The position numbers were made by a program, and so were the translations under genes. DNA of 57,113 bases from the NCBI GenBank assembly GCA_014695325.1, contig JACJNZ010000090.1:1-57113 (forward strand), written 5' to 3'. Below the pieces are notes generated by a model. That model did not search any database. It saw nothing but the letters and a program-made list of their open reading frames with translations, and had not been told where the DNA came from. How positions within the stretch are numbered: the first letter of the stretch is position 1; every line of letters begins with the position of its first letter. Below, piece by piece: positions 832-22,075 of this stretch. The stretch comes from Cyanobacteria bacterium FACHB-502 (lineage in GTDB: Bacteria > Cyanobacteriota > Cyanobacteriia > Elainellales > Elainellaceae).

Positions 832-1779
832 TTAAAGAGTTTTTGCGACACAACCTGCTCGACTCCGAATTACTTCTACCATCTTTTCCGCAGCCAGGCT
901 TAAATGCTGTCTATGGTTTGTGATAAGAACTGCCGATCGCGACAAAGAACATTCTGACACTTCTATCACGATAAGTCTGCCAGCTTCTAAATCTTCTTGA
1001 ACCAAGGAATGGGGCGCGAATGTTGCACCGAAGTTAGAGAGTAAAAGTTGCCGGACTGACTGAAAACCTTTGACCTCGGCAACGATCTTGAAACGATGCT
1101 GATGAATTTGATAAATCTTCTCAACGATATTACCAATTCCACAAGGGCTGCTACCGAATGTTGATTTCTGCCGATGCAGAACAAGCGGTAATGTTTCAAT
1201 CTCCTCCAGGTAAAGTTTCTTAGAAGTGGCTAAAGGATGGGTTGCACCAATCACTAGCAGAATTGGTTCCTCGTAAAGCACTTCGCAGGTTACATTGTCC
1301 TGAGGAAAAGGGAGCGACAAAATTGCTAAATCAAGCAAGCCTTGCTCTATTTGCTTAATTAGCCCCTCTGTATAGTCTTCTAAAATTTTTACATGAACTT
1401 GAGGATACTGTTGATGATAACGGCTTAACATCTGAGACAAAAATCGCTGTGACGAGGAAGGAGTTAACCCTAGCGTTACAATGCCTGTCACCGCTTGAGA
1501 CATCCTTGCAACTGCAAATGCACCATCTTGCATTGCTTGTAAAGAATCTCGGCAATAGCGGATGAATACCCTACCTTCCTCTGTTAAATAAACCCCATTC
1601 GATCGCCGATGTAGAAGTTGAACTCCTAAAAATCGCTCAAGTCTCTGAATGTGCTGACTCACAGTAGGCTGCGATAAATTCAGCGCAACTGCTGCATCTG
1701 TAAAGCTATTTTTCTCCGCAACTTCAACAAATGAAATCAAGGCTGAAAAATCTAGATGCCCCACCTTGTGTTTATTCAT
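832..1779 (-). CDS. LysR-family transcriptional regulator
   Basis: A 315-residue LysR-type regulator. Residues about 10-70 form the winged helix-turn-helix (SFTDAAVALNLSQPTVSQHIQ), and the rest is the periplasmic-binding-protein-like effector domain (about 95-305). Length is normal for the family. It is divergent from the ABC transporter and amidase genes that start at 2272, the usual arrangement for a LysR protein and its target operon. Its promoter is a canonical NtcA-activated promoter (1884-1925), so it should be induced under nitrogen limitation, as the LysR activator NtcB is. The co-inducer is unknown. That it regulates the neighbouring operon is inference from divergence. Confidence 0.9.
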   Translation of the reverse strand: MNKHKVGHLDFSALISFVEVAEKNSFTDAAVALNLSQPTVSQHIQRLERFLGVQLLHRRSNGVYLTEEGRVFIRYCRDSLQAMQDGAFAVARMSQAVTGIVTLGLTPSSSQRFLSQMLSRYHQQYPQVHVKILEDYTEGLIKQIEQGLLDLAILSLPFPQDNVTCEVLYEEPILLVIGATHPLATSKKLYLEEIETLPLVLHRQKSTFGSSPCGIGNIVEKIYQIHQHRFKIVAEVKGFQSVRQLLLSNFGATFAPHSLVQEDLEAGRLIVIEVSECSLSRSAVLITNHRQHLSLAAEKMVEVIRSRAGCVAKTL

Positions 1780-1883
1780 TTTTCGGCTACTCTACAGGTA
1801 AATCTATTGGCTGGCAATATTTCTGCTCAGGGATAAAATTAACGCATTAAACTGAAATAGCTTCAGGCACGTATTTTCAGGAC

Positions 1884-1925
1884 AATCTAAATCTGCCAAG
1901 CCTACTTTTCTGTATTATTAACTAC
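1884..1925 (-). promoter_or_regulatory. NtcA-activated promoter of the LysR gene
   Basis: On the minus strand the NtcA box GTAGTTAATAATAC (GTA-N8-TAC, 1912-1925) is followed after exactly 22 bases by TAGATT (1884-1889), which fits the TAN3T -10 element. GTAN8TAC-N22-TAN3T is the canonical class II NtcA architecture. Transcription would start near 1877, giving a leader of about 100 bases to the LysR start. No matching -10 lies at that spacing on the plus strand, so the site appears to serve the regulator only. Confidence 0.75.
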
Positions 1926-2013
1926 ATTAAAGTCAGTGAACTCTTCTAAGCCAGGGAGCACTTATATTTCGCCACAATATTGCTCTGTTTGTTAAAAAAT
2001 ATACAGGCAAACC

Positions 2014-2244
2014 CTAAGATAGGTAATTCAGCATAGGTAATTCTGCGCCGGCCGAATGATATTCGATAAAGAAGGCGCTATTGGATTCACAAATAGCAGG
2101 AATTCTAGAACGTAATCGGAAATGTGATGAAAAGTACGATTCCAGCCGTCTCAATCCCCTAACTTGATTTTGGATTTCAAGGGTTGGAGGCAAAGAGTTG
2201 CTATCATTCCAGCCGCAGAACTCCTGTAGCGCATTGGGGTTCAA
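2014..2244 (-). pseudogene. Possible IS110-family transposase fragment
   Basis: The minus-strand frame contains PPTLEIQ, an LRRLES segment, and RIPAICES with a hydrophobic continuation. These resemble the middle of cyanobacterial IS110-family transposases, where PPT-x-IQxLQxLVRRLE precedes an S-I helix. The match is patchy and seems frameshifted, and no catalytic residues are present. The fragment fills most of the space between the LysR gene and the ABC operon. It could instead be chance coding potential in a promoter region. Confidence 0.25.
2019..2043 (+). repeat. Two 11-bp direct repeats upstream of the ABC operon
   Basis: ATAGGTAATTC occurs at 2019-2029 and 2033-2043, a 14-bp period. 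The repeats lie about 230 bases upstream of the ABC transporter start, in the LysR-operon divergent region. They could be activator sites, but the sequence alone does not show this. Confidence 0.4.
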
Positions 2245-2271
2245 CTCAAGTGTGTTCGGCAGGTTGAGTCG

Positions 2272-3132
2272 GTGTCACACAAGGGAACACGACGGAAGAT
2301 GAACTGGCTTTCTAGCAAAATAGAGCTACGTGAAATCAGCCATGTTTTTCAAAGCCACGATCGAAGGCCAGTCAATGCTTTGGAAGACATCAGTCTGCAA
2401 GTTTCAGCAGGTCGCTTTGTCAGCTTGATTGGACCCTCTGGAAGTGGAAAGACAACGCTGTTTAACATTATTGCGGGCTTGCAGCAGCCTACAGCAGGTC
2501 AAGTTTTAATTGACGAGCGGGATGTCACAGGCAAAATTGGGCTGGTAAGCTACATGATGCAGAAAGACCTGCTCCTTCCCTGGCGAACTGTTTTAGACAA
2601 CGTTGTATTGGGGATGGAACTTCAGGGGATTTCCATTAGTAAAGCCAGACAGTTGGCCCTGCCATATCTTTACCAGTATGGCCTGGGTGGGTTTGAAAAT
2701 CATTATCCGGCTGAATTGTCGGGCGGAATGCGTCAGCGAGCAGCGTTGCTACGTACTTTGCTGTGTCATACTGAGCTAATTTTATTAGATGAACCTTTTG
2801 GAGCATTAGATGCACAAACCCGCGCCCAGATGCAGGAATGGCTGCTTCAGCTCTGGAGTGACTTCGGCAAAACGGTTTTATTTGTGACACATGATGTAGA
2901 CGAAGCGGTTTACCTCTCAGATGAAGTATTTGTCTTAACGGCTCGCCCCGGAACAATCAAAGCGCGGCTTGAGATATCGCTCGATCGCCCTCGTTCTCGT
3001 CAAATTGTGACTGATCCAAGCTTCATTCGTCTCAAGGAAACCTGCCTTGCACTGCTGGCGGATGAAGACATTGCAGGATCAATTTTAAAGCTCAGTCGGG
3101 ATGTCGCAAGAAAAGGAAAAGCGCAGCGATGA
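2272..3132 (+). CDS. ABC transporter ATP-binding protein (SsuB/TauB/NrtD type)
   Basis: ATPase of a nitrate/sulfonate/taurine-type importer, 286 residues. Visible motifs are Walker A GPSGSGKTT (about residue 55), the Q-loop MMQKDLLLPW, signature LSGGMRQRAALLRTLL, Walker B LILLDEPFGALD, and the switch His in FVTHDVDEA. The frame opens at GTG 2272; an in-frame ATG at 2299 would give a 277-residue protein and is the main alternative. It overlaps the permease gene by 4 bases (ATGA), so the two are translationally coupled. Position beside amidohydrolases suggests an organic nitrogen substrate rather than a sulfonate. That is inference. Confidence 0.9.
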   Translation: MSHKGTRRKMNWLSSKIELREISHVFQSHDRRPVNALEDISLQVSAGRFVSLIGPSGSGKTTLFNIIAGLQQPTAGQVLIDERDVTGKIGLVSYMMQKDLLLPWRTVLDNVVLGMELQGISISKARQLALPYLYQYGLGGFENHYPAELSGGMRQRAALLRTLLCHTELILLDEPFGALDAQTRAQMQEWLLQLWSDFGKTVLFVTHDVDEAVYLSDEVFVLTARPGTIKARLEISLDRPRSRQIVTDPSFIRLKETCLALLADEDIAGSILKLSRDVARKGKAQR

Positions 3133-3992
3133 TTAGACTTCCAATTCCGGTTAACTCGATGCGCTGGGCAAGACAAGTTTCATGCCAGGGGCGCTCGCTA
3201 CCACACGAACGGATTTGGTCTAAACACATCATTGTACTCTGGCAGATCTGTATCACAATCGCTTTGTTGACAGTATGGGAATTGGGAACTCGCATCGGCT
3301 GGATCGACGCTTTTTTCTGGTCTTCCCCGTTCACCATTTTAAAAACTGGAATTGTTTTCTTTCGTCAGGGCAGTGCAGTTAGCGATATTTGGTTTACTTT
3401 TCGCTCAACGATCGCTGGATTTTTCATCGGTACAGGTCTGGGTGCAGCAATTGGGTTAACCTTCTGGTGGTCGCGCAACTATGCTGCAATTGCTCAACCG
3501 CTCATCATTGCTTTTCATGCGACTCCTAAATTGGCATTAGGTCCGCTCGTCATCCTCGTATTTGGGATGGGATTTGCTTCTAAGGTTGCAATGGCAGTTG
3601 CGTTGACAATCGTGATATCCGTCTTGACTACTTACAGTGGTATTCAAGCTGTCGATCCTGATTTACAGCAGCTCATGTACTCACTGGGAGCAACTCGGTG
3701 GCAGGTTTTTACAAAAGTTGTGATTCCGTCGGTGTTACCCTGGATTATTTCGTCCCTGCGAGTCAATATTGGGCTTTCACTTTCCGGGGCGATCGTCGGT
3801 GAGTTTCTTGGATCTCAAGCAGGGCTGGGTCGGCTGATTCTTTATGCTGGGCAAACTTACGACATTGCTTTGGTCTGGGTTGGCGTACTCGTTCTCGCTG
3901 CACTTTCAGTGGTGATGTACGCCTTTGTGCAACATTTAGAACAGCTTCTGTTGAAAGGAGTAATGCATGGAACTCAGCCAATCAAAGAGTAA
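3129..3992 (+). CDS. ABC transporter permease (SsuC/TauC type)
   Basis: Inner-membrane permease of the same importer, 287 residues. About six hydrophobic segments are visible, starting with IIVLWQICITIALLTVW near residue 38. The cytoplasmic coupling loop has the family form ATRWQVFTKVVIPSVLPWI (EAA-type, near residues 195-215), followed by GEFLGSQAGLGRLI. Length is typical. It starts inside the stop of the ATPase gene, and its last 26 bases overlap the binding-protein gene, so the three genes form a tight operon. Confidence 0.9.
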   Translation: MIRLPIPVNSMRWARQVSCQGRSLPHERIWSKHIIVLWQICITIALLTVWELGTRIGWIDAFFWSSPFTILKTGIVFFRQGSAVSDIWFTFRSTIAGFFIGTGLGAAIGLTFWWSRNYAAIAQPLIIAFHATPKLALGPLVILVFGMGFASKVAMAVALTIVISVLTTYSGIQAVDPDLQQLMYSLGATRWQVFTKVVIPSVLPWIISSLRVNIGLSLSGAIVGEFLGSQAGLGRLILYAGQTYDIALVWVGVLVLAALSVVMYAFVQHLEQLLLKGVMHGTQPIKE

Positions 3993-5142
3993 AACTGCCG
4001 TTCAGGGCAAAGGGCAGAAGGGATGGCTTTTTAGTGGGTGGAGCTTCAGGGGGTGGAACTTCAGTGGGTGGAGCTTCAACTTCTTATCGTGGAGATTAAT
4101 GAGTTTACGATCTCAATTGAAGTGCTGGAAGCAGTTTGGGCTTATTCTGCTTGCGTTTGCAGCTTTTAGCTGTAGTGTTGCGATCGCTCCTGGGGACAGC
4201 GGTGATTTAACCAAGCTTGTAATCGCGGAACCGTTGCATGGAACCGGATATTTGCCGCTTTATGTAGGGATACATCAAGGATTCTTTGAAAAAGAAGGGC
4301 TGAACGTTGAAGTTGTGACTTTTCAGGGCGGAGGAGCGCATACCAACGCAGTGCTTGCAGGAGATGCCTGGGCATTTATTGGTGGACCTGAACGCAATGC
4401 TTTAGCCAAAATAAAAGGAGCTGAATTGCGGGCGATCGCTCATGTAGTCGATCGTGGAAATGTGTATCTTGTTGCAGGGAATCATCTCAACTTTACCCCA
4501 GCTGAACTTCAGCAAAATTTAGCAGAGCTGCTGCAGGGGAAGCGAATTGCTGTCAGCCACTTTGGTAGCACTCCAAATTCTATCTTGCGCTATGTTTTAT
4601 CAAAGAAGGGGTTGGACCCGCAGAAAGACGCAGTACTGATTGAAGGAGAGCATACGGCAGCACTTGCCGCAGTGAAAACTAAACAAGCAGACTTTGCGAT
4701 CACAACAGAGCCAATCTTAACGCAAGGAATTCGTCAGGGAATCTGGGGCGAACCCGTCTACAGCATTCCAGAAGAGTTGGGTTCGTATGCTTTCTCTACG
4801 ATTAATGTCCACAAACAGACGATCGATCGGGAACCTGAAACCGTAGAGCGTTTTACCCGCGCACTGTATCGATCGATCCGATTTGTTTACGACAATCCAG
4901 ATGAAGCATTTGAGATTGCGACGAAAGAATTTCCAATGATGCCAAAAGATGACCTAAAGGCAACACTCGATCGAGCCTTTGCGGATCAGCTCTGGAGCTC
5001 AGACGGTATTGTTAAACCTGAAGCGTGGAAGACGGGACATGCGGTAGTGCGAAAGGCAAATATCTTAAAAGAAGATGTTTCCTATGATGCGGTGATTGAC
5101 ATGCGTTTTATGCAAGCAGCAATTTCTAGCTCCCGTTTGTAA
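3967..5142 (+). CDS. ABC transporter substrate-binding protein (NMT1/SsuA-like)
   Basis: Periplasmic binding component, 391 residues. The mature part begins LVIAEPLHGTGYLPLYVGIH and continues GFFEKEGLNVEVV, diagnostic of the NMT1/SsuA/ThiY fold. A strong AAGGAG site at about 3955-3960 supports the start at 3967, overlapping the permease end. This gives an unusual 44-residue N-terminal extension containing a GWSF repeat before the hydrophobic signal LILLAFAAFSC. The Cys could be lipidated, though AFSC is not a perfect lipobox. An alternative ATG at 4099 with GGAG upstream would remove the extension. Ligand unknown; the neighbours suggest a nitrogenous compound. Confidence 0.88.
   Translation: MELSQSKSKTAVQGKGQKGWLFSGWSFRGWNFSGWSFNFLSWRLMSLRSQLKCWKQFGLILLAFAAFSCSVAIAPGDSGDLTKLVIAEPLHGTGYLPLYVGIHQGFFEKEGLNVEVVTFQGGGAHTNAVLAGDAWAFIGGPERNALAKIKGAELRAIAHVVDRGNVYLVAGNHLNFTPAELQQNLAELLQGKRIAVSHFGSTPNSILRYVLSKKGLDPQKDAVLIEGEHTAALAAVKTKQADFAITTEPILTQGIRQGIWGEPVYSIPEELGSYAFSTINVHKQTIDREPETVERFTRALYRSIRFVYDNPDEAFEIATKEFPMMPKDDLKATLDRAFADQLWSSDGIVKPEAWKTGHAVVRKANILKEDVSYDAVIDMRFMQAAISSSRL
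4033..4077 (+). repeat. 15-bp tandem repeat, three copies
   Basis: Three consecutive 15-bp units (4033-4047, 4048-4062, 4063-4077) of consensus AGTGGGTGGAGCTTC encode SGWSF, RGWNF and SGWSF in the N-terminal extension of the binding protein. The first and third units are identical and the middle differs at two positions. In-frame length lets copy number change without breaking the gene. Confidence 0.85.
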
Positions 5143-5183
5143 GATAATCACCACGTTCATTTTATCCTTCAACGAAATTAACC

Positions 5184-5885
5184 ATGCAACCCTGGGACGG
5201 CATTATTTCAAACGTGGATATGATGAGCTTTCGTTCTGGTTTTCGGGGGATAGAATGCTCTCTGGAAGCCGGAGTAAAACCTGCTCTGATCATCGTAGAC
5301 ATGACACGAGCTTTTGTTGACAGTCGCTATCCAACGGGATGGAGTGAAACAGGGTATCCCGCAGTTGCAGCTAACCGCAAGCTATTGAATGTTGCCCGAA
5401 AAGCGACTATTCCTATTTATTTCACAAAGGGCTATGCAGAACCAGATTATAAACCTAAACCCGTCCAGCGAGGACGATGGAAAACTGGAAAACGACCTCT
5501 CGTTGATCCAGCTTTACCCCCTGGGGATGTTATTGTCGAGAACTTAACTCCACTTCCGGGAGAAATTGTAATTGACAAGCAGTCAAAGCCCAGCGGTTTT
5601 TTTGGAACCCCCCTAGCGTCTTATCTCGTTTATGAAGGAGTGGATACGGTAATCGTTACTGGAATGACGACGAGTGGCTGTGTGCGGGCAACGGTGCTAG
5701 ATGCTTTCCAGTACAATTTCAATGTCATCATTCCCCATGAATGCTGCGCCGATCGCAGTCAAATTTCTCACAAAGTAAGCTTATTTGATCTACACATGAA
5801 ATATGCAGATGTTGTTTCTGTGGATATCGCGATCGATTATTTGATGCAGGTTGCGGGAGCAATCTCAATCGCTGATCCAGTATAG
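5184..5885 (+). CDS. Isochorismatase-fold amidohydrolase (N-carbamoylsarcosine amidase-like)
   Basis: A 233-residue cysteine hydrolase of the isochorismatase superfamily. The catalytic triad is visible: Asp in IIVDMTRAF (about residue 37), Lys in KQSKPSGFFGTPL (about 135), and Cys in GMTTSGCVRATVLDAF (about 167). The SGFFGT and TSGCVRAT forms are closest to N-carbamoylsarcosine amidase and maleamate amidase members, which release ammonia from a carbamoyl or amide group. It lies 41 bases after the binding-protein gene and probably belongs to the same operon. It has no signal peptide, so it would act on the imported compound. The exact substrate cannot be read from the sequence. Confidence 0.88.
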   Translation: MQPWDGIISNVDMMSFRSGFRGIECSLEAGVKPALIIVDMTRAFVDSRYPTGWSETGYPAVAANRKLLNVARKATIPIYFTKGYAEPDYKPKPVQRGRWKTGKRPLVDPALPPGDVIVENLTPLPGEIVIDKQSKPSGFFGTPLASYLVYEGVDTVIVTGMTTSGCVRATVLDAFQYNFNVIIPHECCADRSQISHKVSLFDLHMKYADVVSVDIAIDYLMQVAGAISIADPV

Positions 5886-5929
5886 GCAGCTGTCTGATAG
5901 TGGTTATATAAAACTTACTTCAGAATTAA

Positions 5930-5982
5930 CAAGGCTTACGGAGCGAAACCGGGCAACGATCGCAAATGACCTGTAAGCCTTG
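5930..5982 (+). terminator. Long-looped 10-bp inverted repeat
   Basis: CAAGGCTTAC (5930-5939) and GTAAGCCTTG (5973-5982) are perfect inverted repeats separated by 33 bases, lying between the amidohydrolase and the MFS gene. A short T-rich stretch follows (CTGTTTGT). It may be a partial terminator or a structured leader of the MFS mRNA. Assignment as a terminator is tentative because the loop is long and the T tract weak. Confidence 0.4.
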
Positions 5983-6042
5983 CTGTTTGTCAGTAAAACA
6001 ATATATGTTTTCATGCGACATCATCCTGAAAGCACAGGGTTT

Positions 6043-7254
6043 ATGCTGGTTTTACGGCAACAGCCAGCCTTAATTCCTCTGCTTATCATTGTTATGTGCG
6101 TAATGATGGGTATGGGATTGCTTGTTCCCGTACTCTCTCTTTATGCCTCCAGTTTTAATGTCAGTACCGTAATGGTTGGGATGACCGTTACCGTGTTTGG
6201 ATTTGCTCGCTTATTAGTTGACATTCCAGCAGGAACACTTTCAGAACGGTATGGACGACGAAGATTATTGTGGAGTGGTCCCGGACTTCTGGCAATTGCA
6301 TCTTTTGCAGCAGGAGCAAGCCATAGTTTCACCTGGCTCCTGGCCTGGCGATTTGTACAAGGCGTTGGGTCAGCTCTTTACATGACTGCAGCAATGGCAG
6401 CCGTGGCAGACCTCAGCACCCCTGAAACTCGCGGTCGAACAATGGCACTTTACCAGACCGCGCTGCTAACGGGCACTTCACTAGGACCTGTTGTGGGCGG
6501 TTTTGCTGCCAGTACTTGGGGGTATGCGGCTCCGTTCTGGCTATTTGGTGTTGTCTCTGCAATCGCGGCATTGATTGCATTCTGCTCGGTTTCAGAAACA
6601 CTCAACCGGGACTTGACAGTCAACTCTGTTTCCGGAGAACGGAAATCTCTCGGAGGACTCAACGACCTGAAATTACTGATGTCCAGCCGCAAATTTTTGC
6701 TGATTACCGTTGTTTCGTTTGCTATCTTCTTTACCCGAACCGCTGCAAAGTTCACGCTGATTCCATTAATTGGACTCAATCGGTTTCAGATGAACTCAGA
6801 TAAGATCGGGCTAATCTTAACGATCGCAACACTGGCTAATTTTCTGGCCCTGCCGCTTGCCGGAAGAATGATGGACAGGTATGGCCGGAAAATTGTGATT
6901 GTTCCCGCTCAAACAGCTTGTGCCGCTGCTTTAATTCTCGTTGCCTGGTCGCCGATTCCCAGTCTTTTCTGGATTGCTATCGTTATTCTGGGAGTTGCAA
7001 TGGGAATTAGTTCTCCTGCTGCTGCTGCCTATGCTGCCGATGTTACGCCTCAAGCCAGATTCGGACCTGCAATGGGACTTTTAAGAGCTATCAGCGATTT
7101 GGGATTTATGGTTGGTCCCGTTCTCGTTGGCGCAGTTGCTGATTTAACTCCTTATACGCTTGCTGGTGGCCTGATGTTTAACAGCATTTTGGTGATTATC
7201 TCAACGCTGTTTTTTGCAGTCCTGACAAGAGAAACGCAGCCTACTGAAACATAA
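6043..7254 (+). CDS. MFS transporter
   Basis: A major facilitator superfamily permease with about 12 membrane segments. It has the family loop-2/3 signature in DIPAGTLSERYGRRRLL and the second-half repeat AGRMMDRYGRKIVIV. ATG 6043 is chosen because AGGG lies a few bases upstream and the first membrane helix follows at once; ATG 6013 gives a 10-residue longer form, and the frame is open back to TTG 5980. It has the same direction as the surrounding amide genes and may import or export the substrate or a product. It is drug-efflux-like in motif, so specificity is unknown. Confidence 0.85.
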   Translation: MLVLRQQPALIPLLIIVMCVMMGMGLLVPVLSLYASSFNVSTVMVGMTVTVFGFARLLVDIPAGTLSERYGRRRLLWSGPGLLAIASFAAGASHSFTWLLAWRFVQGVGSALYMTAAMAAVADLSTPETRGRTMALYQTALLTGTSLGPVVGGFAASTWGYAAPFWLFGVVSAIAALIAFCSVSETLNRDLTVNSVSGERKSLGGLNDLKLLMSSRKFLLITVVSFAIFFTRTAAKFTLIPLIGLNRFQMNSDKIGLILTIATLANFLALPLAGRMMDRYGRKIVIVPAQTACAAALILVAWSPIPSLFWIAIVILGVAMGISSPAAAAYAADVTPQARFGPAMGLLRAISDLGFMVGPVLVGAVADLTPYTLAGGLMFNSILVIISTLFFAVLTRETQPTET

Positions 7255-7302
7255 AAGATATTTCGCACCCTGAGCTTCACAAAATATTTCTAAATATATC
7301 AG

Positions 7303-7327
7303 TTTGTCTATTGTAATTTGTCTATTG
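7303..7327 (+). repeat. Two 11-bp direct repeats upstream of the asparaginase
   Basis: TTTGTCTATTG is present at 7303-7313 and 7317-7327, a 14-bp period, in the AT-rich leader before the asparaginase gene. The 14-bp spacing equals that of the different repeat at 2019-2043. No GTAN8TAC site was found here. Confidence 0.35.
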
Positions 7328-7467
7328 AGGAGCGGCATACCGTTCATTGCAAAATCCAATTAAATATGTTGCTATGTACACTACTTGCATTACTCTGTTT
7401 ACCCAATAATTACATTAATTTCTCAGAAAATCTTGGGTGCATGAGTTAAGTGAGGAGTAAATTAGAA

Positions 7468-8607
7468 ATGAACAAACTTATCCATCGTCTATTACCAGGA
7501 ATATTTCTGGTAAGTCCTGCTGCTCTTGCTGCCCCATTCGCGGTTTATTCTTTACCCGTTACTTCCTTAGCCACAAACTCTTCCGAAGTCAGGGTTGCTC
7601 AAGCCGAAACAGCTACCGAACTGCCGAAAGTAAAAATCTTGACAACGGGAGGAACGATCGCTAGCCGTGGAGCAACACCACTCACTTTGTCAGACTATAC
7701 AGCTGGTCGAGTTGAAGGGAATGCGCTGGTCGAAGCTGTACCAGAGATTCAAAACTTTGCCAACGTTGAAGTTGAAGAAATTGCCAATATCGGTAGTCCT
7801 GATATGACTAGCGAAATCTGGCTAAAAATGGCAAAGCGAATTAACGAAATTTTTGCCACCGAGCCAGACGTAGCAGGGGTTGTGATTACGCATGGAACCA
7901 ATACGCTGGAAGAAACTTCCTTCTTTTTGCATCTTACGGTTCAATCAGATAAACCTGTCGTTTTGGTAGGGGCGCAACGACCTGCAACTGCAATTAGTGC
8001 GGATGGTCCACTCAATTTAATCAACGCTGTTCGGGTTGCTGCGGCTCCTCATTCGCGAGGAATGGGCGCACTACTCGTCATGAACGACCAAATCAACTCT
8101 GCTAGAGATGTCACAAAAACAAATACGTTTCGCCTGGAAACTTTTCAATCTGGTGAATTAGGGTTTCTTGGCTATGCAGACTCCGATCGCGTTGTGTACT
8201 ACCGTTCTCCAATGCGTCGCCATACCGTGCGGTCGGAATTTGATATTACCAGTGTGACGGAACTACCGAGAGTAGACGTTGTTTACTCCTACGCTGAAGC
8301 ATCTCGTGACACAGTTGATGCGCTAGTCGAAGCAGGGACGAAGGGCATTATTTTGGCAGGAACAGGAGCGGGCGGAGCAGCACCCCGTGAGTTTGAAGGG
8401 TTAAAGGAAGCTGTTCAACGTGGAGTCACTGTGATTGCATCAAGCCGAGTTGGCAACGGGCGAGTTCTCGATCGCCAGAGATATGTCGATGCAGGGATTA
8501 TTCCCGGCGATAATCTACTGCCTCAAAAGGCCCGTATCTTGCTGATGTTAGCGTTAACGCAAACCAGTGATCCGGCTGAGATTCGCCGCATTTTTGAGGA
8601 ATACTAA
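7468..8607 (+). CDS. Secreted type II L-asparaginase/glutaminase
   Basis: Hydrolyses asparagine (often also glutamine) to release ammonia. From ATG 7468 the protein has 379 residues; GAGGAG at 7452-7457 supports this start over GTG 7450. A Sec signal peptide (LIHRLLPGIFLVSPAALAA) is followed by the first threonine motif ILTTGGTIAS (about residue 58) and the second, VVITHGTNTLEET, both carrying the catalytic Thr residues of the family. The HGTNTLEET form and signal peptide fit the periplasmic type II class. It is followed after 17 bases by the first amidase gene, so the two are probably co-transcribed. Confidence 0.93.
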   Translation: MNKLIHRLLPGIFLVSPAALAAPFAVYSLPVTSLATNSSEVRVAQAETATELPKVKILTTGGTIASRGATPLTLSDYTAGRVEGNALVEAVPEIQNFANVEVEEIANIGSPDMTSEIWLKMAKRINEIFATEPDVAGVVITHGTNTLEETSFFLHLTVQSDKPVVLVGAQRPATAISADGPLNLINAVRVAAAPHSRGMGALLVMNDQINSARDVTKTNTFRLETFQSGELGFLGYADSDRVVYYRSPMRRHTVRSEFDITSVTELPRVDVVYSYAEASRDTVDALVEAGTKGIILAGTGAGGAAPREFEGLKEAVQRGVTVIASSRVGNGRVLDRQRYVDAGIIPGDNLLPQKARILLMLALTQTSDPAEIRRIFEEY

Positions 8608-8624
8608 TCAACAGGAAATCTACC

Positions 8625-10829
8625 ATGATAACGACAACCCGGCTATCAGCCCCCACTTCATTCAAGCTGATAGAGGCAACGATTGAGGAAATTACGAAAG
8701 CTTTTGAATTTGAAGCTCTGACGGCTGAACAGCTTGTACAGCTTTATTTAAACCGAATTGAAGCTTACGATCAGCAGGGACCGACACTCAACTCCATGAT
8801 TAGTGTCAACCCAAGCGCACTTGAAACGGCTCGACAATTAGATGAAGAGCGTCGGTCAGGAACGCTAAAGGGACCGTTGCACGGCATTCCAATCGTGCTC
8901 AAAGATAACTTTGACACCTTTGATTTGCCAACGACAGCTGGTTCTATCGTTCTGAAAGACTCGGTTCCGCCAGATGATGCGCGTTCAGTAGAGCTGTTGC
9001 GAGAAGATGGAGCCATCATTTTAGGTAAAGCTAATATGCGTGAGTTCGCTGCTAGAGGCGGGCTGGGCGTTTACACAGAGTATGGAGGCGAGACTCGTAA
9101 CCCTTATAACTTTAACCGGAACGCATCTGGTTCCAGTGGCGGCACGGGGGCAGCGATCGCCGCTAATTTTGCAGTTCTTGGCACTGGAAGTGATACTGGT
9201 GGTTCTATTCGTGGGCCTTCCTCTTTCAATGGTTTGGTGGGTATTCGTCCTACACGTGGATTGATTCCCCTGGATGGTATTGTTCCTTTTGCCCTTTCCC
9301 GTGATGGAATTGGGCCAATGGCACGAACCGTCACCGATGCTGCTGTTGCTCTAGGATCGATGGTGCAATACGATCCTAACGACCCTATTTTTAAAACTCC
9401 TATTCCAGCTCCTCAAGCACAACCCGACAAATTTTTTGAGGATTACACCCAATTCCTACAGCCTGATGCATTGAAAGGGGCACGGATTGGGGTAGGTCGT
9501 GTCTGGTTTGGGGGTGATCCGGAAGTCGATCGCCTGATCGATGAGGCTATTCAGGTAATGGAAGATCTGGGAGCCACGATCGTTGAACTCGATTTATCAA
9601 ACGAGTTGCTAACCACCATGATCAATGCCTCACGATCAATTGGGTTAGCGGAGTTCCCATCTCAGCTCGCTGAGTACCTGTCTACTTTGGAGGAGGGCTA
9701 TCCTAAGACGCTGGATGATATTATCGCGATCGCAGAATCGCCAGAATTTGCGGATTTAGTGCCACCCTCCAGATTGCAAGGGTTAAAGAATATTCGAGAT
9801 TACGGTGGACTGGAAAATCCTGAGTACATTGACGTAGTGCAGAATGTTATTCCTGCATTGCGAGAGACGTTCTTTGATATTTATGAAAGCAATGATATTG
9901 ACACGATTGTCTTTCCAACAACCAGAACGTTTGCTTCCCCCTTTGAAGGAGTGACCGATCCCACTTTCGTAGAAGTGTTACCAGCACCGCCAATTCGTGG
10001 TGTAGAGATTGCTAGTCTGCTTGGTTTCTCAGATATCACGGTTCCAGCAGGCTTGAGTGAAGACGGCTTACCAATTACCATTTCCTTTACAGGAGTTCCT
10101 TACAGTGAGCCGGCCTTACTGGGTTTAGCCTATTCCTTTGAGCAAGCAACCCAACACCGAGCTGCCTCTCCGCTATTGCCCGCACTTGAAGGTGAAGAAT
10201 TTGAGTACGTGACAGAAGTGCTGGTTGCAGGGGATGCCGCAAATGACGTTATTGTTGCAAAGCAGATTACTGATTTTGACGGTAATGGGGATATTGTTTT
10301 CTCAGGCGATGGTAATGACTCGATCGATACAACTCCAGCCTTAACAGGTCGCAATCGTCTCTATGCAGGAAATGGTGCGGATAAGGTATTGGCAAGCCGA
10401 AACGATCAGGTCTTTGGAGAAGCGGGAGCAGATATTTTAGATGCCTCAAAAGGACGAGGTGACAACTTACTTTACGGCGGCTTAAACAATGATGAACTTT
10501 TTGCAGGAACGAGAGATCAGCTTTTTGGTGATGAGGGAGACGACAAACTATACGTTGGTGAATTAGGAGATAATTTACTGACAGGAGGCACAGGAACAGA
10601 CCAGTTTTGGATTGCTAAGGCAAAACTACCAATCAGCAAAAACACGATCGCAGATTATGAGATTGGAACGGACGTGATTGGAATTAGTGATTTAAGCCTG
10701 CGTTTCACAGATTTATCCTTCAGCCAGGTCGGGCAAAATACAGATATCCGTGTGGGCGATGCAGTTGTAGCAACGCTGTTGAATACTGAGGCAGATGCAT
10801 TAACAGCAAATAACTTTGTGTTTGTTTAG
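8625..10829 (+). CDS. Amidase-signature enzyme with RTX C-terminus
   Basis: A 734-residue two-part protein. Residues about 15-515 form an amidase-signature domain with the catalytic Lys93 (VLKDN), cis-Ser170 (SGSSGGTG) and nucleophile Ser194 (SDTGGSIR). Residues about 535-660 carry degenerate RTX nonapeptides such as GNGADKV, GEAGADIL, GDEGDDKL and GGTGTDQF. The end (about 660-734) resembles the C-terminal tail of cyanobacterial type I secretion substrates, finishing LTANNFVFV. No N-terminal signal is present. The enzyme should therefore be exported by an HlyBD-TolC-type system, which is not in this window. Substrate unknown. AGGA upstream supports ATG 8625. Confidence 0.9.
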   Translation: MITTTRLSAPTSFKLIEATIEEITKAFEFEALTAEQLVQLYLNRIEAYDQQGPTLNSMISVNPSALETARQLDEERRSGTLKGPLHGIPIVLKDNFDTFDLPTTAGSIVLKDSVPPDDARSVELLREDGAIILGKANMREFAARGGLGVYTEYGGETRNPYNFNRNASGSSGGTGAAIAANFAVLGTGSDTGGSIRGPSSFNGLVGIRPTRGLIPLDGIVPFALSRDGIGPMARTVTDAAVALGSMVQYDPNDPIFKTPIPAPQAQPDKFFEDYTQFLQPDALKGARIGVGRVWFGGDPEVDRLIDEAIQVMEDLGATIVELDLSNELLTTMINASRSIGLAEFPSQLAEYLSTLEEGYPKTLDDIIAIAESPEFADLVPPSRLQGLKNIRDYGGLENPEYIDVVQNVIPALRETFFDIYESNDIDTIVFPTTRTFASPFEGVTDPTFVEVLPAPPIRGVEIASLLGFSDITVPAGLSEDGLPITISFTGVPYSEPALLGLAYSFEQATQHRAASPLLPALEGEEFEYVTEVLVAGDAANDVIVAKQITDFDGNGDIVFSGDGNDSIDTTPALTGRNRLYAGNGADKVLASRNDQVFGEAGADILDASKGRGDNLLYGGLNNDELFAGTRDQLFGDEGDDKLYVGELGDNLLTGGTGTDQFWIAKAKLPISKNTIADYEIGTDVIGISDLSLRFTDLSFSQVGQNTDIRVGDAVVATLLNTEADALTANNFVFV

Positions 10830-11065
10830 AAGATGCTTTGAGAGTATTCAATGTGCTGCATTCATCTTGCAGCCTGTAATTCCAGAGGATTCCTGACTCA
10901 GTTTCCATTTAAAGTTTCTCAAGTTTAGGGAACTTTGGAAACGGTTCGAGTCACCCTTTGCCTCAACCTTCATTTTGAAAATTCAAGACTTTCTAGAAGT
11001 TGTAATGAGGCACACTTTTCTGCTGCTTTTAACTACTAGTATTTCCAATTGAGGAGATTTGTTCT

Positions 11066-12904
11066 ATGACATCTAAGCCTTCATTGCTAGACTTAACCAT
11101 TTCAGAAGCACAAGCTGCAATGGCGAGCGGAGAACTCTCAGCTGTAGAGTTAACTCAGTACTATCTCGATCGAATTTCGGTATATGACGATGAACTCACT
11201 GGAACCTATCTCAACTCCGTTGCCACTCTCAGTCCCGATGCGCTTGAACAGGCTGAAAGACTAGACCAGTTGCGCGCCGAAGGCACAATTCTTGGACCAC
11301 TGCACGGCGTTCCTATAATGGTCAAGGATTCATACAACGTAGCAGGATTAGCAACCACAGGTGCAGTTCGAGGTTTTGAGAATTTTGTTTCAGACGACGA
11401 TGCATTTGTAGTAGAGAAATTGCGAGAAGCAGGCGCGATTATCCTGGGCAAAACAAACATGGACAGCTTTGCCAGTGGTGTTCGCGGCTTTAGCAACTTG
11501 TTTGGTGGCACTCGCAATCCCTACAATCTGAACAAGGAAACAGGAGGATCAAGCTCTGGTACTGGATCTGCAATCGCAGCAAACTTTGCAATTGCAGGAA
11601 TGGGGGGCGAGACGGGAGGATCAATCGTTATCCCCAGTGCAGCAAATTCGCTTGTCGGAATTAAGCCGAGCCGGGGACTTGTCTCAGTTGATGGAACTAT
11701 TCCACTTTCCCCATTTCGGGATGTGATTGGTCCCATGACGCGCAGTGTGACAGACACAGCAATCATGATGGATGTACTGGCGCAGGAAGATCCGGAAGAT
11801 CTCTGGTATTCCTATAAACCAGAGGGGGCTAACGATCGCCCAGAGTCCTACGCATCGCCAGAGGTTTTGAACGAAAAGGCATTAGAAGGAAAAGTTCTTG
11901 CCGTTCCCAAAATATATGTTGGTAAGGATCAAAAATTGGGAGAAGGATTTGAGCTTGATCCTGAAATTGAAAAGCTATTTGAGGATGCCAAGCAAACTCT
12001 GAAAGAGCAGGGCGCAACTGTAATTGAGGTAGACACAGCCCCTTACCTTTCTAAATGGATCAATCGTGAGGAAGAGTGGGATTATGGCTGGTCCGACGAA
12101 CAGTTTCCTAATTGGAATCGAGAAAGCGCTGCCTACTATCTGGAAGAATTTATCAAAGATCTCAACAATCCAGAAATTGACTCACTGCTAGATGTAAAAA
12201 CTGCGATTACTGGAGAGTTTTCCGATACTGCTCTAGTTCAAACTCTAGAAGCTCTTGAAAAAGGAACCCCTCGCTCATTTGAAGACGAAGCCCTACAGAC
12301 TGTTCTGAAAGCATTGGAGCAATGGCGCGTCAATGATTTTGAACCCTTTGTTAAAAAACAGGGTATTGATGCGTTTGTGTTTCCGACTCTACGTGCTGCA
12401 ATCCCAGATGAATCTGGACCAACAGGACCTATTCCCTTTAATCGAAACGCTGATGCTGAATCAAACGTGATGGGCTTACCCGTTGTCACAGTTCCAATGG
12501 GATATACGAAGGGCAGTGCTCCTGCTTCCCTCAGTTTTATGGGAGATTACTACGGTGAAGCAGAAATTTTAGGCTACGCTTTCGACTTTGAGCAAGCTAC
12601 AAAGTACCGCAAAACACCTGGTACAACACCCGATCTCACAGCTGTTGATAAATTACTTTATGGAGGAACTGGTAGCGATCGAAATATAGGGAAGACATTC
12701 ATTCTGAAGACAGGTTTGGGAAGAGATGTGATTGAAGATTACAAAGTTGAATTAGACCAGTTTAAGCTGAGTCAGGAAGTCCAATTTGATGATTTGATAA
12801 TTACTCAAGTTGGACAGAATACTCGTATTCTGCTGGATAAGGACGTGTTAGTAGTTTTGAAAGGAGTTGATGCTGATCTGATCACAGCAAGTGAATTCGC
12901 TTAA
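11066..12904 (+). CDS. Second amidase-signature enzyme with reduced RTX tail
   Basis: A 612-residue paralogue of the preceding amidase. The triad is intact: Lys87 (MVKDS), cis-Ser162 (GGSSSGTG) and Ser186 (GETGGSIV). The C-terminal region keeps a single RTX-like YGGTGSDRN and then a secretion tail parallel to the first enzyme (ITQVGQNTRILL against FSQVGQNTDIRV). Most calcium-binding nonapeptides are therefore missing while the putative export signal remains. The start at 11066 has GAGGAG about 9 bases upstream. It lies 236 bases after the first amidase, with a terminator-like hairpin downstream. It hydrolyses an amide bond; the substrate is unknown. Confidence 0.9.
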   Translation: MTSKPSLLDLTISEAQAAMASGELSAVELTQYYLDRISVYDDELTGTYLNSVATLSPDALEQAERLDQLRAEGTILGPLHGVPIMVKDSYNVAGLATTGAVRGFENFVSDDDAFVVEKLREAGAIILGKTNMDSFASGVRGFSNLFGGTRNPYNLNKETGGSSSGTGSAIAANFAIAGMGGETGGSIVIPSAANSLVGIKPSRGLVSVDGTIPLSPFRDVIGPMTRSVTDTAIMMDVLAQEDPEDLWYSYKPEGANDRPESYASPEVLNEKALEGKVLAVPKIYVGKDQKLGEGFELDPEIEKLFEDAKQTLKEQGATVIEVDTAPYLSKWINREEEWDYGWSDEQFPNWNRESAAYYLEEFIKDLNNPEIDSLLDVKTAITGEFSDTALVQTLEALEKGTPRSFEDEALQTVLKALEQWRVNDFEPFVKKQGIDAFVFPTLRAAIPDESGPTGPIPFNRNADAESNVMGLPVVTVPMGYTKGSAPASLSFMGDYYGEAEILGYAFDFEQATKYRKTPGTTPDLTAVDKLLYGGTGSDRNIGKTFILKTGLGRDVIEDYKVELDQFKLSQEVQFDDLIITQVGQNTRILLDKDVLVVLKGVDADLITASEFA

Positions 12905-17124: not shown

Positions 17125-17360
17125 GAACACTGGGTTAGAGCCGAATATCAAAGCCGACCAGTTAAGCTTGAAGATGAAGTGCGTCAGCTCAACTCTAGCG
17201 TTTTGCCGCTTGCGTTTCGGGTTGTGGCGGTTGCTTAAAACGGATCTGTTGGTGTCTGAGGGGGTGTCTGAGGCTAGTTGTTTTGAGGCTCTCAGTGAGA
17301 CAAAGTTTTGAAATGGTCGCTGAGCAGCAGATTTCATGCAGCCTCTTGATATTTAGAATA

Positions 17361-17374
17361 AGTGCATATACACT
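17361..17374 (+). promoter_or_regulatory. MarR operator 1 (palindrome)
   Basis: AGTGCATATACACT is one mismatch from the perfect palindrome found again at 17862-17875. It ends 7 bases before the ATG at 17382 and overlaps a possible -10 (TATACA 17367-17372, with TTGATA 15 bases upstream). This fits autorepression of the MarR gene. Confidence 0.6.
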
Positions 17375-17381
17375 TAAAAGT

Positions 17382-17840
17382 ATGAAGAAACACATCGACC
17401 CAATTAACTCAACTGAACTAGGTCAAGTGGTATCAACCTGCGCCTGTTTCAATCTCCGAAAAACTTCTCGTGTTATCACGCAACACTTTGATGAAATTCT
17501 CAAGCCGAGCGGATTGCTCATTACTCAATTCACAATTCTTGTAGCTGTAGCACTGGCGAAATCGGGAACGATCAATGAGTTGGCGGAGATTCTAGTGATG
17601 GATCGTACTACCTTAACCCGGAATCTCAAACCGCTTGAACGCGAGGAATGGTTGAAATCTGAGCCTGGGCAAGACCAGCGAACTCGGGTAGTTAGCCTAA
17701 CACCTAACGGAAAAGCTGCGTTAGCAAAGGCACTGCCGTTGTGGAAACAAGCTCAAGATAGTGTGGAGGAGGTGCTTGGGCAAGAGCGATGGAGTGCTCT
17801 GCTTTCACATTTAGCTGAGACGATCGCGCTAATTCGCTGA
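17382..17840 (+). CDS. MarR-family transcriptional regulator
   Basis: From ATG 17382 a 152-residue winged-helix regulator. DNA-binding helix: GTINELAEILVMDRTTLTRN, followed by the wing EPGQDQRTRVVSLTPNGKAA, both typical of MarR. The frame is open upstream to 17283, but the extension contains the putative promoter and operator, so the shorter start is preferred. Near-identical 14-bp palindromes sit before this gene and before the next one (17949), suggesting a repressor controlling itself and the neighbouring membrane protein. The Cys pair in STCACF (about residues 15-17) might allow redox sensing, which is speculation. Confidence 0.88.
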   Translation: MKKHIDPINSTELGQVVSTCACFNLRKTSRVITQHFDEILKPSGLLITQFTILVAVALAKSGTINELAEILVMDRTTLTRNLKPLEREEWLKSEPGQDQRTRVVSLTPNGKAALAKALPLWKQAQDSVEEVLGQERWSALLSHLAETIALIR

Positions 17841-17875: not shown

Positions 17876-17948
17876 GAAAAAACCTTTGTTTCGTCTGAAT
17901 CTCCTGAAAAATTCCTGTCAAATCGTTCAATCAAATTTGGAGACTTCT

Positions 17949-18548
17949 ATGATTTCTCTATCCTTAAATCAACGTAATCAAATCACGCAACGGTTACTTT
18001 CCATCATTAGCGTTTGGGGATTGGGTGTGGCAGTCGGCAGCTATTTCGGACTCTTTAGCACATTTCCCCTACCGTGGTTTGCCTTGCTCGTTGCAATGGG
18101 CATCACTCTGCCTCTAGCAATTTATTACGGGAACTCAGTCTTCCAAACCTATATCCAGGGACTCCATCTCAATTACCTAACCCTATTTCACATTTGGCGC
18201 ATTCCAGCAGCGCTCATTTTCTTTTATTACGGTAGTCAACATTTGTTACCATCTACCTTTGTGCGAAATGCAGCTTGGGGGGATTTAGCAGCGGGACTGT
18301 TGGTACTCGTGGTAGTCGCATTGCCAAAGAGTGATTGGAAATACTGGGGCTTTCACCTCTTTGGTCTAGCAGATTTTGTGACTGCGGTTGGCACAGGTTT
18401 AACCTTTGCATTGCTTCAAGTTCCTATGATGGAGACAATTGCGACTTATCCTATTGCCTTGATTCCATTATTTGGAGTGGGTCTCTCAGGCGCATCCCAT
18501 GTCATGGCACTCGATATTCTGGTTCGAAAAGCCACTAGCGGCGAGTGA
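17949..18548 (+). CDS. Integral membrane protein of unknown function
   Basis: A 199-residue protein with about six hydrophobic segments. ATG 17949 is preferred over the longer frame from 17886 because GGAG precedes it and the extension covers the intergenic region. A central HIWRIPAALIFFYYGSQHLLP and AAWGDLAAGLLVLVV pattern (His-x-Trp-Arg, then Gly-Asp) occurs in a group of uncharacterised bacterial membrane proteins. It follows the MarR gene by 108 bases and has its own copy of the palindromic operator, so it is the likely target of that repressor. No catalytic motif is recognised. Confidence 0.8.
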   Translation: MISLSLNQRNQITQRLLSIISVWGLGVAVGSYFGLFSTFPLPWFALLVAMGITLPLAIYYGNSVFQTYIQGLHLNYLTLFHIWRIPAALIFFYYGSQHLLPSTFVRNAAWGDLAAGLLVLVVVALPKSDWKYWGFHLFGLADFVTAVGTGLTFALLQVPMMETIATYPIALIPLFGVGLSGASHVMALDILVRKATSGE

Positions 18549-20202: not shown

Positions 20203-20236
20203 AGTTGTTTCGCGAAACCAGAAACAAAGCTACAAG

Positions 20237-20278
20237 ATCATAAAGAGGGGCTAACCCACAGTTTGTATTGCGGATTAC
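20237..20278 (-). promoter_or_regulatory. NtcA-activated promoter of the acetamidase gene
   Basis: The minus strand carries GTAATCCGCAATAC (GTA-N8-TAC, 20265-20278), followed after exactly 22 bases by TATGAT (20237-20242), a good -10 and a TAN3T match. Transcription would start near 20230, leaving a leader of about 28 bases. The architecture is identical to the promoter of the LysR gene at 1884-1925. Confidence 0.8.
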
Positions 20279-20520: not shown

Positions 20521-20640
20521 CCGTCCCAGAAACCGAAATCGAAAGAATCTCGATCGCAGCAGAGTAGTCAAGAACTTGATATTGCTGTGGATAGCGGGTA
20601 TGAACCAAATCGGATTATGGTTCAGGCGGGGCATCCGCTT
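20521..20640 (+). pseudogene. Truncated cupredoxin-domain fragment
   Basis: The plus-strand frame encodes QKPKSKESRSQQSS, QELDIAVDSGYEPNRIM and VQAGHP. This parallels residues of the cupredoxin protein at 13149-13763 (RKPRSQKAQSQKG, then QELDIAVDGGYEPNRIV, VQAGQP). The copy is cut on both sides: by the IS6 relic upstream and by the 3' end of tonB, which is read from the other strand across 20615-20640. It has no start codon or copper ligands and is a relic of duplication or rearrangement. Confidence 0.7.
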
Positions 20641-22075
20641 CAGGGGGGAGAACTGGTTCAGGCTCAGAAGCTGGTTCAGGAATCGGAACTGGTTCGGGTT
20701 CAGGCTCAGGAATTGAGATTGGTTCAGGTTCAGGCTCAGGAATCGCAATCGGTTCAGGTTCGGAAGCAGGGAGTGTGGAGTCTACCGGCTCAGAGGGAGA
20801 TGAAATTTCTGAAGGTGAGTCGGAAGCTGCTGCGGGTTCAGAGACAGGATTATTGTCTGCGGGTTCAGAGTTTCCTGTATCGGAAGGGCGCAGTTCCACA
20901 TCAGGAGCGATCGAGGGTTCTGGACTAATAGACGGCTCTGGAATTGGGGATGGCTCACTAGACAAAGTGGGTTCTGGAGATGGGGCTGTCGTGGCAGTCG
21001 GAGCAGGTGTTTCAATCGCAGGTTCAGGATCAGACACCGTGATACTGCGTCGATCGCCTCGTTCTCTAACTCGTTCTGCTGCTTCCGAGTTGGGCTGGAC
21101 AAAGTCAACATCGATCGGATAGCTCTCTCCGGCTCTAGCGTTGTTGAGCTGAACTTGACGCCTTGCTTGCTCTAAAGCAGCCTGATCCAGCGCAGCATTA
21201 CCGCTAGAGCGTGAAAGCATTACAGAAACAACGCGCCCTTGGTCATCGGTTTCCACAATTACCTGAGCCGTTCCTTCTGCACCATCTGCTTCTTCCGGAT
21301 AGTCAAAATCACAGCCGCGACAGGAAACTTCACGCGATCGGCTGCCTTGGGTTGCAGGCGGGGTGATCGGTTCCGGACGAGGGGGTGCAGCAACAGTTGC
21401 TGATCCATTCCCGGAACCATTCCCGGAACCATTCCCGGAACCATTTCCAGAACCGTTCCCCGTACCACTTCCCAAACCATTTTCCAAACCGAATTGACCT
21501 GCGGCGGTTGCGGATTCGCCTGTCTGCTGTCTTGCCCGCCGTATCTCTGAGAGCAGATCGCTCAAGCTACGAGGATTGGGGGCTGGGCTAGCGATCGTTT
21601 GTGAAGGTGCAGGGGGCGATTCTTCTACAGTTTCGGTAGGTGCTTCTGCAGGTGTAGCGGGTTCTGGAATCACGTCTTCTGCAAGCGGCACAGGGATGCG
21701 TTCTTCTGGAGGTTCTTCTGAGAGTGGTTCTTCTGAGAGTGGTTCTTCTGGAAGTGGTTCAATGGCTGGAGCAGGAGCAGCAGGCTGATCAACAGCGGCA
21801 GATTCGTTGAACTGCATGGAGGGTTCTGACGCTGCGAACCCTGAGCCACCCGACTCGTCTTCAGGCGCGATCGAGGTTTCCGTTTCGTCCTCTTCAGTGA
21901 CCACGATCGTTATTTCTTCGGATACTTGCTTATCTGGCTTCCAAAGATCGCTGATTTTAAGAAACAAGCCGCCGCTATGCAGGGTAACTGATCCCGCGAG
22001 GCTGACCATAATGAATCGCCTGAGCGTTCTTGCTTGCTTTTCGCGCTGTTGAGCGACTGTATCTGAAAACGTCAT
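20615..22075 (-). CDS. tonB: TonB-family energy transducer
   Basis: A 486-residue protein. An N-terminal membrane anchor (FIMVSLAGSVTLHSGGLFL, about 22-40) is followed by a Pro/Glu/Ser-rich periplasmic linker, a (GNGS)n stretch near 205-230, and a TonB C-terminal domain at about 245-325 (SCRGCDFDYPEEADGAEGTA, then ALDQAALEQARRQ). A further Pro/Glu/Ser-rich tail of about 150 residues follows. In proteobacterial TonB the C-terminal domain ends the protein, so the tail is notable. The last codons overlap a cupredoxin relic on the other strand, and the tail end may have been rewritten there. Divergent from exbB; it powers the TonB-dependent receptor at 29825. Confidence 0.85.
   Translation of the reverse strand: MTFSDTVAQQREKQARTLRRFIMVSLAGSVTLHSGGLFLKISDLWKPDKQVSEEITIVVTEEDETETSIAPEDESGGSGFAASEPSMQFNESAAVDQPAAPAPAIEPLPEEPLSEEPLSEEPPEERIPVPLAEDVIPEPATPAEAPTETVEESPPAPSQTIASPAPNPRSLSDLLSEIRRARQQTGESATAAGQFGLENGLGSGTGNGSGNGSGNGSGNGSGNGSATVAAPPRPEPITPPATQGSRSREVSCRGCDFDYPEEADGAEGTAQVIVETDDQGRVVSVMLSRSSGNAALDQAALEQARRQVQLNNARAGESYPIDVDFVQPNSEAAERVRERGDRRSITVSDPEPAIETPAPTATTAPSPEPTLSSEPSPIPEPSISPEPSIAPDVELRPSDTGNSEPADNNPVSEPAAASDSPSEISSPSEPVDSTLPASEPEPIAIPEPEPEPISIPEPEPEPVPIPEPASEPEPVLPPEADAPPEP
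21405..21464 (-). repeat. 12-bp tandem repeat in tonB
   Basis: Five 12-bp units (CCATTCCCGGAA on the plus strand; first three identical, last two diverged) encode the (GNGS)n linker of TonB. Copy number changes would keep frame and alter linker length. Confidence 0.85.

Follow-up and report, generated by a model that had tools for sequence, protein, structure and literature searches.

The window analyzed here, a stretch of 57,113 nucleotides from Cyanobacteria bacterium FACHB-502, is contig C91 of a 6.6 Mb genome that is 99.99% complete. It holds a gene for an acetamidase/formamidase-family protein with a putative NtcA-dependent promoter before it and, 18 kb away, a LysR regulator divergent from a set of transport and amide-hydrolase genes with similar candidate sites (Table 1).

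Table 1. Genes and predicted promoter elements in the window.
Feature	Coordinates	Strand	Description
NtcA-type box GTAATCCGCAATAC	20265..20278	-	GTAN8TAC, defining bases 6/6
-10 element TATGAT (TAN3T)	20237..20242	-	Exactly 22 nt past GTAATCCGCAATAC
Predicted transcription start	20230	-	Predicted from geometry, box centre at -41.5
Acetamidase/formamidase-family protein, 433 aa	18901..20202	-	Pfam PF03069, His-rich N-terminus, SRRAFL twin-arginine signal
Second NtcA-type box GTAGTTAATAATAC	1912..1925	-	Upstream of LysR, with TAGATT following after 22 nt
-10 element TAGATT of the LysR promoter	1884..1889	-	22 nt past GTAGTTAATAATAC
LysR-family regulator	832..1779	-	Divergent from the ABC/amidase cluster
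Weaker box GTGATGAAAAGTAC	2124..2137	+	TAACTT follows after 22 nt; the ABC operon starts 135 nt downstream
ABC transporter, biuret-hydrolase-like protein, MFS protein, type II asparaginase, two amidases	2272..12904	+	
Candidate box GTAATGAGGCACAC	11002..11015	+	TAGTAT follows after 21 nt; the second amidase lies 51 nt downstream

The promoter and its acetamidase-family gene

The initial annotation had described a perfect NtcA promoter before the acetamidase-family gene, and we found its geometry of box, 22-base spacer and TATGAT on the minus strand to be exact. From GTAATCCGCAATAC to the ATG of the gene, at position 20,202, is 62 nt. If transcription begins near 20,230, the box would be centered at -41.5, the canonical position in NtcA promoters according to the accessible part of one account (PMC3898017). 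The same partial source gives 22 nt between box and -10 element for ilvG and likens this to glnA (PMC3898017). The site thus resembles the class II promoters of glnA, urtA, nirA and ntcB in having GTAN8TAC near -41.5, relative here to a predicted start, and a TAN3T -10 element; it is unlike them in its target, an acetamidase-family gene with a Tat signal. NtcA itself is encoded in the same genome (C59:43534-44112), where a profile search matched TIGR03697 at 389.7 bits (cut-off 244.95). We also found seven lower-scoring matches to this model in the genome, all below the cut-off.

Next, we characterized the encoded protein. Its match to Pfam PF03069, which we take to be the same family as COG2421, scored 103.1 bits against a cut-off of 27 (E value 2 × 10−29). 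The closest solved chain was PDB 3b9t (E value 3.4 × 10−72, residues 95-430), itself named a twin-arginine signal protein, and the two have a GDPHxxQGDxE stretch in common. The protein was not over the cut-off of the NCBIfam FmdA equivalog NF045496 (62.3 versus 500 bits); it is unlike FmdA/AmdA family members both in this low score and in the His-rich extension that precedes its Tat motif. This motif, SRRAFLTSLGAATALGL in P0001, lies before a hydrophobic stretch, and TatC is present in the genome (PF00902, 227.6 bits). Among the 17 distinct orthologous loci defined below, window included, 14 had the QSRR motif, and 14 had a His-rich leader ahead of the Tat signal (20202-20050 on the minus strand in the window, L002-L012, L044 and L080), with 6-13 His within the 32-57 residues preceding QSRR. 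Three loci from one genus (L047, L081 and L082) had neither the Tat motif nor the promoter box. The acetamidase-family protein is probably exported, judging from its predicted signal. The earlier label of a Tat-exported acetamidase fits SRRAFL, TatC and PF03069, though these do not settle export or substrate.

The next listed open reading frames downstream (17886-18548 and 17283-17840) are on the opposite strand, so the acetamidase gene is probably transcribed alone. Its upstream neighbor (20615-22075, minus strand) encodes a TonB C-terminal-domain protein, and the 3' part of that gene, at about 20640-20760, is repetitive DNA.

Distribution of the box before orthologous genes

As orthologues of the acetamidase-family gene we took 11 cyanobacterial loci in named genomes (L002-L012), together with those obtained by searching 60 relatives, 36 genomes in the order and 388 in the class. 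Orthologues were found in 4 of the 36 genomes of the order (E value ≤ 1 × 10−100) and in 17 of the 388 genomes of the class (E value ≤ 1 × 10−130), own genome included in each case. Dropping eight duplicates that were identical from -100 to +600 yielded 17 distinct loci, the window among them. L043, L045 and L046 were left out because their contigs have the same lengths as those of L002, L003 and L012; also left out were an Alkalicoccus locus without a box (L013, 48% identity), a 111-residue fragment from genome G006 (L051), and distant homologues of about 50% identity or less (L048-L050 and L052-L071).

GTN10AC was present 59-84 nt ahead of the start in 12 of these 17 loci (window, L002-L008, L010-L012 and L044), and in 10 of the 17 TAN3T followed 21-22 nt past the box. 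The initial annotation had proposed looking for the box before close orthologues, and these counts bear out the sequence half of that check. At L002 and L003 the box stands without a TAN3T 18-26 nt past it. No box was found at the corresponding place in five loci, which form two supported clades in the protein tree, L009 with L080 (97/100) and L047 with L081 and L082 (100/100). The same tree joins L012 with L002/L003 (99/98); 9 of its 16 inner branches are unsupported, and the window stands on a long branch.

Counted by clade, box and -10 element occurred together in three of the five non-window clades. In dinucleotide shuffles, three of five clades at a spacer of 21-23 had P = 5 × 10−5 with the box 50-95 nt from the start and P = 0.005 at 20-236 nt, and with the spacer fixed at 22, where two of five clades count, P was 3 × 10−4 and 0.009 for the tight and loose distances; the tight range of 50-95 nt was chosen after the data had been seen. 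We also compared all 256 motifs of the form XY-N10-ZW followed by TAN3T. GT/AC alone reached three of the five non-window clades in the tight range, and two other motifs also did so in the loose range. Without the -10 element the box is unexceptional: GT/AC was found in four of seven non-window lineages, with L012 and L002/L003 counted apart, and ranked 8th of the 256 motifs by lineages. Because seven motifs outrank bare GT/AC, the conservation test rests on the box together with the -10 element.

The genes neighboring the acetamidase gene in the window were not found beside the other orthologues, within about 1.5-4 kb on each side and less at contig ends. No flanking gene recurs, and the promoter box therefore travels with the acetamidase gene. 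Two PF03069 paralogues lie on contig C49 of the same genome; no GTN10AC with TAN3T was present in the 250 nt upstream of their chosen starts, and one of them has a bare GTN10AC at 214 nt.

The LysR/ABC/amidase cluster

The initial annotation had reported identical spacing at a second site upstream of LysR, and this site also proved exact, with the same 22 bases as before the acetamidase gene. Positions 832-12904 form a compact amide-use cluster. The first amidase (8625-10829) is extended at its C-terminus, and this part weakly matches RTX-type calcium-binding repeats (PF00353, 27.3 bits, cut-off 23), which would hint at secretion.

When 375 other genomes were searched for LysR orthologues (E value ≤ 1 × 10−90), two contained one; at most six candidates were scored per genome, so that an orthologue may be missed. 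A same-genus genome (L084/L107, 92% identity) retains the 22 nt between box and TAGATT and carries two tandem GTAN8TAC boxes in this region, the second perfect box lying 20 nt farther out. In L108 (79%) there is only a degenerate box with a spacer of 23, located 390 nt before the LysR start as counted from the first base of the box. Of the nine genes from LysR to the second amidase, eight were matched in L107 and six in L108, where the order of the amidases is reversed. A scan of L107 found no box like GTAATGAGGCACAC near the second-amidase gene.

On the ABC side, the counterpart of GTGATGAAAAGTAC in L108 is GTGATTGAAAGTAC, 22 nt before TAGCTT and placed relative to an ABC start taken from alignment; L107 has a different box there, GTATTGCTAAATAC, 21 nt before TAAGCT. 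In all three genomes the divergent region holds, in both directions, a GTN10AC box followed by TAN3T after 21-23 nt. The chance of boxes in both directions under shuffling (spacer 20-24) was 0.014, 0.022 and 0.028 for the genomes taken singly, the three being related. As to the common nitrogen-starvation programme claimed earlier for the two loci, the two-way boxes at the LysR/ABC region suggest it, and the sites of this cluster lend it moderate support.

Competing explanations and the proposed regulation

We weighed several other explanations for these sites. The acetamidase site may be a chance match, one of the roughly 20 occurrences of GTAN8TAC-22-TAN3T in the genome. By number the pattern gives such a reading some room: GTAN8TAC alone is not special in the window (5 observed versus 3.27 expected by shuffling), the full pattern is not enriched across the 6.6 Mb (20 matches versus 20 for a reversed control), and it is not in excess over the 36 genomes of the order (682 versus 1042 for the control, summed). 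Genome-wide enrichment, showing no excess over the control, was dropped as an argument. The earlier argument that two such sites in one window are unlikely to be chance is likewise weak, because the probability of finding 2 of the 20 matches in the window (Poisson P = 0.013) does not allow for the choice of window, and because two other pairs of matches, each about 5 kb apart, lie on contigs C8 and C67. Against a chance match stand the box in 12 of 17 orthologous loci, the clade-level shuffles, with P from 5 × 10−5 to 0.009 over the four settings, and the genomic context of the pattern. Specifically, 9 of the 20 matches versus 1 of the 20 control matches lay outside coding sequence and had a gene-like start 10-250 nt further on (Fisher p = 0.008), a comparison somewhat biased in that the TA-words of the NtcA pattern can form stop codons and the CAT/ATG of the control cannot. 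By context, the pattern exceeds chance; by count alone it does not. We consider a chance match at the acetamidase gene very unlikely. We find it just as hard to credit that the block was kept by shared descent or for some function other than NtcA binding, for example as the promoter of a divergent gene in a Stenomitos-type clade. In a seven-locus clade (L004-L008, L010 and L011) conservation is also good in the bases next to the box, and at five of these loci a shared divergent gene begins about 112-138 nt upstream, with an AAA-type ATPase match in L006, the single copy scanned. However, L005 and L007 keep the box even though their flanks show no divergent gene of this kind, and the separate box-bearing lineages share little around the box beyond GT, AC and single adjacent bases.

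A different question is which regulator would bind. The consensus for regulators of the cAMP-receptor type (CRP) is TGTGA-N6-TCACA. Another CRP-family regulator might bind, at least in some relatives, and the gene would then answer to carbon or cAMP and not to nitrogen. The boxes of L002, L007 and L008 match this consensus at 9/10 positions and NtcA at 4/6, those of L003, L004, L006 and L010 match CRP at 8/10, and we counted the seven sub-cut-off matches to the NtcA model in favor of such a regulator. The opposite holds for the window (NtcA 6/6, CRP 6/10), L012 (6/6 and 5/10) and L044 (5/6 and 6/10), and a perfect NtcA form sits at this position in the sister loci L005 and L011, the latter from Stenomitos frigidus ULC18. 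Across the 12 boxes, the NtcA fit was 6/6 in four (window, L005, L011 and L012), 5/6 in five and 4/6 in three. In Anabaena, as far as the accessible part of a ChIP study goes, GTN10AC is strongly kept in one group of sites and positions 3 and 12 less so (PMC3898017). On these base matches NtcA is the best reading for the window box, a CRP-type regulator is possible in some relatives, and we regard control by another CRP-family regulator as improbable overall. A further alternative concerns the LysR site alone, where the palindrome could instead serve LysR self-regulation; we consider this somewhat unlikely. The tandem palindromes in the divergent region of L107 resemble the operator arrangements of LysR-type regulators, and the box before LysR in L108 is degenerate and more distant; against this, L107 keeps the exact 22-nt spacing to TAGATT even though the middle of its box has changed.

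The nine contextual matches include glnA for type I glutamine synthetase (L020), with the same 22-nt box-to-(-10) spacing in this genome, type III glutamine synthetase (L030), the acetamidase gene, uroporphyrinogen-III C-methyltransferase (L027), two substrate-binding proteins (L019 and L022), an OmpR-type response regulator (L028), and two LysR regulators (L021 and that of the window). L021 may be NtcB and L028 may be NrrA, for which NCBIfam gave matches below cut-off only. A word at L028, GTTAC-AAAA-CC-TGACAAA-N-GCT-TGTTA (G000:C60:15272-15313), lies 79 nt before the OmpR-type response regulator, and at least seven further genomes in the order (G006, G011, G012, G021, G025, G031 and G034) have a very similar promoter-like word.

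The preferred reading is therefore the one proposed by the initial annotation for this site, and the box/-10 geometry, the NtcA gene and the conservation before orthologues all point to a putative NtcA promoter. We think it likely that the acetamidase-family gene has a class II NtcA-activated promoter and that its product, probably exported by Tat, yields ammonium from amides. Under nitrogen shortage, 2-oxoglutarate-bound NtcA, with which PipX acts, would bind GTAATCCGCAATAC centered at -41.5, substitute for the missing -35 element and recruit RNA polymerase to TATGAT. Transcription from about 20,230 would then lead to synthesis of the acetamidase/formamidase-family protein, which would fold, probably leave via Tat, and split small amides outside the cell, releasing ammonium that can be taken up. 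The linked LysR/ABC/amidase cluster, with its similar boxes, may join the same starvation response. A broader proposal, which we put forward tentatively and consider rather unlikely as a whole, is that NtcA runs a two-layer amide regulon made up of the Tat-exported acetamidase, with a His-rich leader that helps load its metal before export, and both arms of the LysR/ABC-asparaginase-amidase cluster. Starvation would then start hydrolysis outside, uptake, hydrolysis inside, and LysR feed-forward.

The available part of one study has a table row in which FmdA of Arthrospira PCC 8005 is up under nitrogen limitation as protein and/or mRNA (2.16 and 2.53; PMC4509649), and the available part of another labels this FmdA COG2421 (PMC8400943). 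It is like the protein described here in being an amide hydrolase, a likeness drawn from the COG2421 label only. Among the matches listed for the literature on NtcA and cyanobacterial amide hydrolases, including the accessible part of PMC10781810, an acetamidase-family gene was not named as an NtcA target. The mechanism proposed here is textbook; the target is new. If the reading is true, external organic amides would join the nitrogen sources opened by NtcA in filamentous non-model cyanobacteria, and an exported enzyme and an uptake/amidase cluster would come under one signal.
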